DNA of 25,002 bases, taken from the IMG/VR virus record IMGVR_UViG_3300020186_000084, positions 1-25,002 of that record, one strand, 5' to 3'. Under the pieces are notes generated by a model, which was not told the origin of the DNA, ran no database searches, and saw only the letters and a list, made by a program, of their open reading frames with translations. The translations under genes were made by a program, and so were the position numbers. This DNA is from a virus. Of this stretch, positions 1-4,154 are shown one piece after another (the first letter of the stretch is position 1; each line of letters starts with the position of its first letter).

Positions 1-22
1 GAATAGAGGGAATTAAATAATG
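1..22 (+). repeat. Junction repeat A, copy 1 (stop, ribosome site, start)
   Basis: The bases include GAATAG, then AGAGGGAATTAAATAATG. They look like the end of an upstream copy (Glu-stop) followed by a ribosome binding site (AGAGGGA) and the start codon at 20. Copies 2 and 3 are at 122-142 and 253-274. The implied upstream Gly-rich unit would lie outside the window. Confidence 0.6.
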
Positions 23-127
23 AAATATATCGATGGTAGCGGTGATGGTGACGGTAGCGGTTATGGCATCGGCGACGGTAACGGTATCGGTAGCGGTTAC
101 GGCAACGGTGACGGCGTTTGTGAGTAG
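20..127 (+). CDS. Gly-X-Gly-X mini-protein (35 aa), function unknown
   Basis: This short gene starts MKYIDGSG and continues as a nearly perfect alternation of Gly with Ser, Asp, Tyr, Ile or Asn, ending Val-Cys-Glu-stop. It has no hydrophobic segment and no known fold that I recognise. A ribosome site (AGAGGGA) lies about 8 nt before the ATG. The next gene (start 140) begins with the same module, MEYIDGSG, and the two 5' flanks are nearly identical, so the pair is a tandem duplication. The bases before position 7 look like the end of a further copy. The DNA is a run of degenerate GGN-NNC hexamers, so it could expand or contract by slippage. I do not assign a function. The shared start module and intact frame argue for translation, but it could be decaying repeat DNA. 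Confidence 0.6.
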   Translation: MKYIDGSGDGDGSGYGIGDGNGIGSGYGNGDGVCE

Positions 128-142
128 AGGATTTAAATAATG
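122..142 (+). repeat. Junction repeat A, copy 2
   Basis: GAGTAGAGGATTTAAATAATG matches copy 1 except for two substitutions and a one-base deletion. It contains the stop codon of the 35-aa mini-gene (125-127), the AGAGG ribosome site and the start codon at 140. Similarity continues downstream through the MEYIDGSG-coding bases. Confidence 0.7.
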
Positions 143-703
143 GAATACATCGACGGAAGCGGCGGCGGTGAAGGTGGCGGTAGCGGTTACGGTAGCGGTT
201 ACGGTAGCGGTTACGGTTACGGTTACGGTATCGGTAGCGGCGGCAATGGCATGAATAAAGAGGGAAATAAAATGCAATATTTTAGAGATGGTTTAACGCA
301 AGAAATTGATACACAAGTAAAAGTTAAAACTACACGTGAAGGGCACACGGTTGAAGAATATTTGGTTGATGGAGTAAAAAAATACTTTGTGACTTTAGCG
401 GGTTCACATTATTGCGCGCACGGCTCAAGCGTAGGCGAAGCGATTTCAGACGCAATCTGGAAAGACGAATCCAAACGACCAACATTAAATGATCTTAAAA
501 AAGAAATTTTAGCTGCTGGTTCAGAGCGAAAAATAACTCTTGCAGAGTTCAGAGTGTTAACGGGCGCATGTTTAGAGGGTTGTCGCATTGCTCTTACGCG
601 GGCTGGGTTAAGCGGCGAACCAATGCTGCCCAAAGAAATCATGAATCATTTCCCAGAATGGGGCACAGCCCTTTATAAAGTTTTGGAAGCGAAGGAGGAA
701 TAA
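140..703 (+). CDS. Gly-rich N-terminus fused to a hypothetical phage protein (187 aa; internal start at 272)
   Basis: Residues 1-37 are a Gly-Ser/Gly-Tyr repeat beginning MEYIDGSG, paralogous to the mini-gene just upstream. Residues 45-187 are an ordinary mixed-composition domain I do not recognise, with a Lys-rich helix-like stretch around 115-130 and a LTGACLEG motif. A second start (ATG at 272, Met45) is preceded by AGAGGGAAATAA, a third copy of the junction module. So the cell may make the full protein, the 143-residue form alone, or both. The layout suggests a Gly-rich mini-gene that lost its stop codon and fused to the next gene. The C-terminus is LEAKEE, written by junction repeat B. 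It overlaps the next gene by 1 nt (TAATG). Function unknown. Confidence 0.75.
   Translation: MEYIDGSGGGEGGGSGYGSGYGSGYGYGYGIGSGGNGMNKEGNKMQYFRDGLTQEIDTQVKVKTTREGHTVEEYLVDGVKKYFVTLAGSHYCAHGSSVGEAISDAIWKDESKRPTLNDLKKEILAAGSERKITLAEFRVLTGACLEGCRIALTRAGLSGEPMLPKEIMNHFPEWGTALYKVLEAKEE
179..214 (+). repeat. Three tandem copies of a 12-bp repeat inside the Gly-rich coding region
   Basis: GGTAGCGGTTAC occurs three times without interruption, followed by GGTTAC, GGTTAC, GGTATC and GGTAGC hexamers up to 238. Each unit encodes Gly-Ser-Gly-Tyr, so unit gain or loss keeps the reading frame. Confidence 0.9.
253..274 (+). repeat. Junction repeat A, copy 3 (stop codon lost)
   Basis: GAATAAAGAGGGAAATAAAATG resembles copies 1 and 2, but AATAG has become AATAAAG, which removes the in-frame stop. 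The AGAGGGA ribosome site and an ATG (272) remain, at a spacing of about 7 nt. Confidence 0.55.
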
Positions 704-2374: not shown

Positions 2375-2644
2375 ATGCCCAAATATTGCTCACCCGACGT
2401 TCAATGTATTGTTACAGGCCAGATGGGTGCGGACTTGCACCACGTGAAAAGCCGTGGTGCGGGAGGCGGCGACGATTCTTGGAACCTCATTCCAGTTTGC
2501 CATCGCATTCACCAAGAAATTCACTCAAAAGGCATTTGCGCTTTGGCTAAACAACATGCTGCCATCCTTAATTGGCTGCTTAGTAACGGGTGGGAATTGG
2601 AAACAGGCCGCGAGAGATGGGTGCGCGTATTGCGTCAACATTAA
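2375..2644 (+). CDS. HNH-type nuclease-like protein (89 aa)
   Basis: The core GADLHHVKSRGAGGGDDSW followed by NLIPVC and HRIHQEIH matches the HNH/treble-clef layout: His22-His23 on the first strand, Asn37 in the NLIP turn, and His46 with His50 on the helix. Cys11 and Cys42 may help hold a zinc ion. HNH domains cut or nick DNA with one metal ion; phages use them as homing enzymes, packaging cofactors or recombination nucleases. At 89 residues it is a stand-alone domain. It has no good ribosome site and may be read from a leaderless message. It sits alone between small genes and far from the terminase genes in this window, so a packaging role is not supported by position. Confidence 0.75.
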   Translation: MPKYCSPDVQCIVTGQMGADLHHVKSRGAGGGDDSWNLIPVCHRIHQEIHSKGICALAKQHAAILNWLLSNGWELETGRERWVRVLRQH

Positions 2645-3665: not shown

Positions 3666-4154
3666 TTATTTTACAGCTGCTTTTATCAAAGCGAAAGCAG
3701 CTGAAGATCCCTGAGACAAAACTACTGGTTTTAACTCTGCCCACGTCAAACCTATTTTAAGTTCGTTGTGCGGCTTATCCACCATTTTCCAAGTTGCACC
3801 ACACACTAAGCCAATTTGTTGACACCCGTTAATGTAATCCACCCAAAACTCATGGTCCCATCTAGCTTTTCCGTCGGGATAGAATTTCGTCCAATCTGAA
3901 GCGCACCCATAATTATGTGGTGATTCCCAACCCTGCGCCTGTGTTTTTCTTCGTGCTTTGTGATCCCTGGTGCGTCCAATAGCATATAAAAAATCTTGCT
4001 CATTAGCGGATCGGATTCCACAATAGGGAGCCCAAAAGGAACCGTCTTCATATTTTATTTCTGCAAGGTACTCGCAAAGCGCTTCATATTTTGGCACGTA
4101 CAGACCATTGAGATTCACTTTAAAACGGTCAAATCGTTCAGCTTGATTCATCAT
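3666..4154 (-). CDS. Endolysin: M15-type zinc peptidase (162 aa)
   Basis: The motif SPHNYGCASD (residues 78-87) and the later WKMVDKPHNEL (122-132) match the zinc site of the VanY / L-Ala-D-Glu peptidase (M15) family: His80, Asp87 and His129 as ligands and Asp126 as the likely catalytic acid. M15 phage lysins such as T5 endolysin cut stem-peptide bonds in peptidoglycan. The length fits a single catalytic domain with no separate wall-binding part and no signal peptide, so release needs a holin. Its start overlaps the upstream membrane-protein gene by 4 nt (ATGA), and a small unknown and the spanin-like pair follow. Confidence 0.85.
   Translation of the reverse strand: MMNQAERFDRFKVNLNGLYVPKYEALCEYLAEIKYEDGSFWAPYCGIRSANEQDFLYAIGRTRDHKARRKTQAQGWESPHNYGCASDWTKFYPDGKARWDHEFWVDYINGCQQIGLVCGATWKMVDKPHNELKIGLTWAELKPVVLSQGSSAAFALIKAAVK

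Follow-up and report, generated by a model that had tools for sequence, protein, structure and literature searches.

The glycine-rich repeat array at the left end of this viral DNA is part of a conserved phage cassette, DUF6948 - (Gly-X)n - AHG, in which order and copy number vary. In the proteins of the Gly-X mini-genes every second residue is glycine, and AHG is a name that we coined for a domain after its AHGxT motif. Because the mini-genes occur in many unrelated phages, keep one constant partner and change length by whole units, we consider them a genuine gene family that is widespread and apparently undescribed. The DNA analysed, here called the window, comprises all 25,002 bases of an IMG/VR virus record from base 1 on, and it starts inside the Gly-X array. 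The features at that end are as follows.

1 to 19, plus strand: 5' flank of copy 1, identified from the sequence; the same flank precedes the copies in the related contig G001
5 to 10, plus strand: SD-like AGAGGG in the flank of copy 1, 9 nt before the start
20 to 127, plus strand: Gly-X mini-gene copy 1, 35 aa, MKYIDGSGDGDG...GDGVCE-stop, with an MKYIDGSG opening; head and tail are common to the G001 copies
126 to 139, plus strand: translation module of copy 2, whose AGAGG overlaps the TAG that ends copy 1; G001 has an identical TAGAGGATTTAAATAATG
140 to 703, plus strand: Gly-X tract and AHG domain in one in-frame fusion of 187 aa, with an MEYIDGSGGG opening; L002 has the same fused build
140 to 250, plus strand: Gly-X tract of copy 2, made of 6- and 12-bp units by repeat analysis
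259 to 274, plus strand: candidate internal start for AHG as read from the sequence, AGAGGG and then ATG at 272-274 (AGAGGGAAATAAAATG)
272 to 700, plus strand: AHG domain (FAHGxT ... LTGACxxGC motifs), 46-64% identical in closer loci and about 30% in others

The sequence-only reading of this DNA had described a duplicated mini-gene with a common flank, an MxYIDGSG opening and a Gly repeat of 6- and 12-bp units, and our analysis bears this out. ORF 20-127 and ORF 140-703 have in common 42 nt of flank plus head, comprising the ribosome site, the start and M-x-YIDGSG, which align with one gap. The local score of this alignment is 47, compared to at most 25 in 500 shuffles and at most 21 for other, unrelated ORF starts in the window. 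A degenerate head pattern has exactly two matches in the window, where none is expected; a degenerate head pattern searched for in viral contigs gave none there. Tandem Repeats Finder resolves the window tracts into fixed-length tandem units of 6, 12 and 18 bp. The two genes are separated by 12 nt. The second, which had been taken for another copy, does have the Gly-X head and tract but is not a free mini-gene, since its tract runs in frame into a conserved domain of about 140 aa that ends at 703. A same-strand Gly-X ORF with a start signal (20-127) thus lies directly beside the AHG-bearing gene (140-703). Judged by its sequence, ORF 20-127 is probably translated, and the internal start at 259-274 may let the AHG domain be made alone as well. 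Bases 1-6 read GAATAG, matching the Glu-stop end of a Gly-X copy, and are possibly the Glu-TAG end of a preceding one; a third copy further left is invisible in the window because the record starts at base 1. DUF6948 is absent within the window, where its gene is cut off, and is known from relatives only.

Two other readings of this region were rejected. The antisense ORF 2-277 owes its open frame to the lack of stops in the repeat on that strand, and it is the plus strand that carries the heads, tails, SD signals and AHG fusion. RTX calcium-binding repeats (nonapeptide GGxGxDxUx; PF00353) gave no Pfam match for the window ORFs, the L002 fusion or the Gly-X protein of Pectobacterium phage Sabo, and the hydrophobic U positions are missing.

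Relatives carry longer arrays, as had been anticipated. A scan with the pattern I-D-G-(X-G)4 returned 78 viral contigs, and parsing of these gave arrays of 2 to about 10 mini-genes. G001 (L026) comes from a phage related to that of the window; three proteins are 89, 68 and 65% identical. Downstream of DUF6948 it carries a tandem run of at least four Gly-X mini-genes, the contig ending within the fourth, with the same flank as in the window and with tails GICE, GVCQ and GICE compared to GVCE in the window; G(V/I)C(E/Q)-stop describes the tails of both. Heads and tails are common within one phage and different between phages: MSGEI(D/E)...RGVLK-stop stands four in a row in L110 and its kin, MIDG...GSGWNEVLS-stop is repeated in L041, and L108 has MNGVI...GSGVLE-stop. 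The tail of each copy holds, overlaps or abuts the SD of the next (GAGGTGCTGTCATGA, GGAGTTTTGAAATGA, TAGAGGATTTAAATAATG). An SD-like signal precedes 86 of 108 Gly-X starts (80%) compared to 18% of all ATGs, a proportion somewhat favoured because the SD-bearing start was picked where several were possible; the proposal that each copy brings its own translation module agrees with these counts. The flank motif TAGAGGGAATTAA(A/C)TATG is also found in L195-L197, there not ahead of Gly-X genes, and so by itself does not identify them.

Some other arrays and tracts depart from the main pattern. Some copies of the long array in L041 (1814-2350) are frameshifted and have lost the Gly-X frame, so that copy decay occurs as well. 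L024 (1-2800) holds a tandem array of about six copies from a different Gly-X family (MHLLKPEG...PFTENHLLYLAVMQRK-stop), with no DUF6948 or AHG nearby. Tracts of another composition, (GQ/GH)n, occur in L004 (4946-5200), just upstream of the DUF6948 cassette, and in L059 (2649-2900).

The constant partner of these mini-genes is DUF6948 (PF22253), whose relatives we analysed in the best 80 of 271 viral loci. In 74 of these 80 a same-strand Gly-X ORF lies no more than 1.5 kb downstream of DUF6948, and in none is it antisense; when distinct DUF6948 proteins are counted and 400 b or more of downstream sequence is required, a Gly-X ORF is nearby in 53 of 55. Across the same loci there are 84 Gly-X ORFs in the 94 kb beside DUF6948 compared to 2 in the 396 kb elsewhere, making them about 180-fold rarer away from this gene. 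In an independent set found by DNA pattern, 27 of 37 tract-bearing sources adjoin a DUF6948 gene, and several of the others are not proper mini-genes. DUF6948 and Gly-X overlap by 17 nt in 35 of the best 80 loci and by 4 nt in 8, which suggests that their translation is coupled, and they are fused in 0 of the 80. AHG is also present in 21 of these 80 loci, and at least two Gly-X tracts occur in 12 of the 21 compared to 3 of the other 59. The DUF6948 and Gly-X pair appears in bacterial genome contigs too, and in deposited phages (Pectobacterium phages, phiPLPE, Vibrio IKEMa6-1 and Chlorobiaceae CV-1-33). In Iodobacter phage PhiPLPE the Gly-X ORF, directly 3' of the DUF6948-like phiPLPE_84 (L085 1164-1409), is unannotated.

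RecT, YqaJ, SSB, AAA ATPase, helicase and ERF genes recur as neighbours, which places the cassette usually in the early recombination/replication region. This location tells against the role suggested in the sequence-only reading, that the mini-genes generate variable surface-like or matrix-like peptides. Although a slippage-prone tract in copy arrays could yield such variants, a cassette among ERF, RecT, YqaJ, SSB and helicase genes is outside the structural module, and Gly-X overlaps DUF6948. In addition, the Gly-X proteins have no signal peptide, because their ORFs, as read from the sequence, begin directly with M-x-YIDGSG, and their residue composition is near constant instead of diversifying. 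We consider this role extremely unlikely.

The tracts vary in length among relatives by whole GGY-NNY (6-bp) units, with the frame preserved. In eight related records (seven Pectobacterium phages and Dickeya phage Setonix) the Gly-X genes measure 162, 204, 222 (three records), 252, 258 and 270 bp, all multiples of 6; the roughly 700 b upstream are 91-93% identical to Sabo in all but Setonix, where the figure is 71%. Near-identical metagenome contigs with matching flanks have tracts that differ by 10, 18, 20 and 24 codons, all even, although an important caveat to such length differences is assembly collapse, above all in metagenome contigs. Whole-unit change with the frame kept was thus found in other phages of the family, in line with the slippage-prone repeat that had been proposed.

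Hexamer repeats expand by slippage, and the tract could in principle be a DNA-level or selfish element (a recombination site, an origin or a slippage expansion) that is open in one frame by chance and makes no protein. The ends of contigs near arrays would fit this explanation, as they fall no more than 600 b from DUF6948 on its downstream side in 20 of the best 80 of 271 loci (L093-L172), compared to 6 on its upstream side. Several properties of a coding sequence make it very unlikely, however: the in-frame fusion to a conserved domain, the SD-like signals at 80% of starts, the constant strand relative to DUF6948, and the use of two serine codon families, with TCN predominant in 52 loci and AGY in 14. 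The Gly slots are also conserved, with 106 non-Gly and 283 synonymous third-base departures where about 2:1 the opposite way would be expected without constraint, a rough figure because tract detection itself favours Gly. As a separate observation, the first bases of both the window and G001 already lie in an array, and the contig breaks look like assembly failure at Gly-X arrays.

If the mini-genes encode proteins with DUF6948 as their partner, the nature of DUF6948 becomes central. Its predicted structure (pLDDT 88.9, pTM 0.82) retrieves only Sm/LSm chains in the top 50 of both PDB fold lists, with Foldseek probability mostly 1.00 and E from 4e-3, and with VIA Z of 7.3-8.4 over 62-80 residues. 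An important caveat to this match, which is to a predicted model only, is that the PDB holds a very large number of Sm chains and that Z of about 8 borders values from unrelated folds. A sequence-profile search of PDB sequences with DUF6948 returned no Sm chain up to E 10, and a search for the LSM family in the window gave none. On the fold prediction, DUF6948 would be an Sm/LSm-like nucleic-acid-binding protein.

The Gly-X proteins are acidic, with a median charge of -7. In 113 unique tracts the X residues are S (32%), Y (23%), D (20%) and N (5%), 80% in all for these four, and 27% are aromatic and 21% acidic; this composition is the same in many unrelated phages. DUF6948 has a median charge of +1 and is near neutral, not basic, so a simple attraction between acidic tail and basic core is not evident. 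We hypothesize by analogy with Hfq that the Gly-X products, which would be intracellular, disordered, acidic, rich in Tyr and Ser and made together with DUF6948, serve it as a low-complexity partner, in effect a 'tail' provided in trans. The Hfq of Acinetobacter (A. baumannii) has a Gly-rich repeat tail in which repeat number matters (PMC11617691), and that of E. coli has a disordered, acidic tail acting as a nucleic-acid mimic (PMC5606850). Such a trans tail would tune or cluster nucleic-acid complexes in early replication and recombination, as the C-tails of Hfq do in cis. Slippage inside a tract would change its length, and unequal recombination between copies would alter copy number. For this account as a whole, the cassette array together with Gly-X as trans low-complexity partner of an Sm-like DUF6948, we see the chances of being right or wrong as equal. 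A bolder form of the model, which we offer tentatively and would not yet expect to hold, is a split Sm-type system. It would comprise Sm-like DUF6948 and a separate, translationally coupled, duplicated and slippage-tuned set of Gly-X tails, some of them fused to AHG, and through repeat length and copy number evolution could adjust how the phage handles RNA/DNA early on.

Composition and neighbourhood also bear on two other possible functions. The Gly-X proteins might by themselves be sticker-and-spacer polymers (Tyr as sticker, Gly-Ser-Asp as spacer) that scaffold a condensate and gather replication and recombination proteins, with DUF6948 and AHG as clients or anchors. The aromatic and acidic X residues set among Gly/Ser spacers, the early-gene neighbourhood and the fusion of Gly-X to a folded domain all suit such a scaffold, but copies as short as the 35 aa in the window would be weak ones and the strict link to DUF6948 is not explained by it, so we judge this unlikely. 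Alternatively, the acidic repeats could be counter-defence decoys that bind and block a host defence or nuclease, their copy and length variation tracking host variation. Fast length and copy change between close phages, an accessory-gene position and the acidic character point this way. An arms race predicts sequence divergence, though, whereas X composition is uniform in unrelated phages; there is no PADLOC match, and the pairing with DUF6948 is constant. We regard decoys as quite improbable.

The third element of the cassette, AHG, was found by scans at 54-59% identity in three phage contigs, all with a DUF6948 gene upstream (PF22253 matches at E 9e-13 in L004 and E 8e-11 in L002, and by homology in L005, also L098). 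In L002 AHG is fused to a Gly-X tract of about 60 aa (MTIIDGYGSGDG...), and the junction has no start codon. L004 instead has a separate Gly-X mini-gene whose end overlaps the AHG gene by ATGA, and in L005 two tandem mini-genes come after the AHG gene, both with the head MIDG and the tail GWEEVKS-stop. AHG has its own gene start in L004, L005 and L061. Neither Pfam nor NCBIfam has a match for AHG, a PDB profile search found nothing and a scan of the genome collection with AHG gave no match. Its predicted model (pLDDT 86.6, pTM 0.62) starts beta-beta-beta-alpha and has a best VIA Z of 5.0, to unrelated chains. An identity with HicB is unproven, because the structure search gave no confident fold match, and Pfam gives no match to HicB.

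AHG also occurs with another kind of repeat. In the 'ribonuclease inhibitor' WCS66356 of Riemerella phage CRP5 (L006 1-527 / L194 2498-2711) it is C-terminal to the repeat region, as in the window, but the repeat is BspA-type LRR_5 and not Gly-X. This arrangement suggests that AHG is a constant part joined to exchangeable repeat parts. The CRP5 gene lies downstream of an ERF gene, with no DUF6948 among the two upstream genes translated. In L060 (1-900) and in the human faecal phage contig MT835900 (L193 1764-2400), Gly-X is fused to a divergent AHG (HHxLTGSCxxGR) adjoining a DUF6948 gene, and the AHG gene of L116 (5322-5742) gives matches in two frames, which looks like a frameshift.

The earlier reading knew of no described phage family with this build, and we found none in the families and literature searched. 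Pfam, NCBIfam and PADLOC hold no family describing the repeat protein or AHG, and PHROG gave weak matches only (E 7e-4 to 8e-2), all to families of unknown function. BLAST of phages with the Gly-X tract, which is subject to low-complexity filtering, produced no genuine match. The literature searched mentions DUF6948 nowhere, and for the repeat string, phage Gly-rich VNTRs and phage Sm proteins it yielded nothing relevant. The nearest deposited likeness is Pectobacterium phage Sabo, where DUF6948 and a downstream Gly-X 'hypothetical protein' of [G-S/Y/D]n composition overlap by 17 nt (XDF89730/XDF89731), although Sabo has one copy, no AHG seen and the head MSKLIKPEKYG. Hfq resembles the proposed pair in joining an Sm-type core to a Gly-rich repeat or acidic disordered chain (PMC11617691, PMC5606850), but its tail is in the same protein, whereas here the tails are separate tandem genes and DUF6948 is assigned to the Sm type by predicted fold only, the sequence-profile search having found no link. 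The start-associated sequences of cluster K mycobacteriophages are also repeated before many gene starts in one phage, yet they are a fixed 13-bp sequence before unrelated genes (PMC3203893); the module described here accompanies the copies of a single gene, each time within or beside the end of the copy before it.

A repeat protein that stands beside one partner in dozens of phages has thus remained nameless and is easily overlooked, being unannotated in phiPLPE and placed where assemblies tend to stop. The copy arrays offer naturally graded repeat lengths and copy numbers that can be read in isolates of one host genus, so the relation of repeat length to phage fitness is directly testable. 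If DUF6948 is truly Sm-like, phages carry an unnoticed Sm protein with a Gly-rich partner, which would bear on how Sm proteins use disordered tails.

The window holds a second repeated gene-junction module, GAAGCGAAGGAGGA, at 686-703, 961-978, 1573-1590 and 1803-1820, one copy having one mismatch. It closes four successive small genes with an EAKEE or EAKGE tail and provides the SD of the next gene. Further along are a small HNH-type nuclease gene (2375-2644, plus strand) and an M15/VanY-like peptidase gene, probably an endolysin (3666-4154, minus strand).
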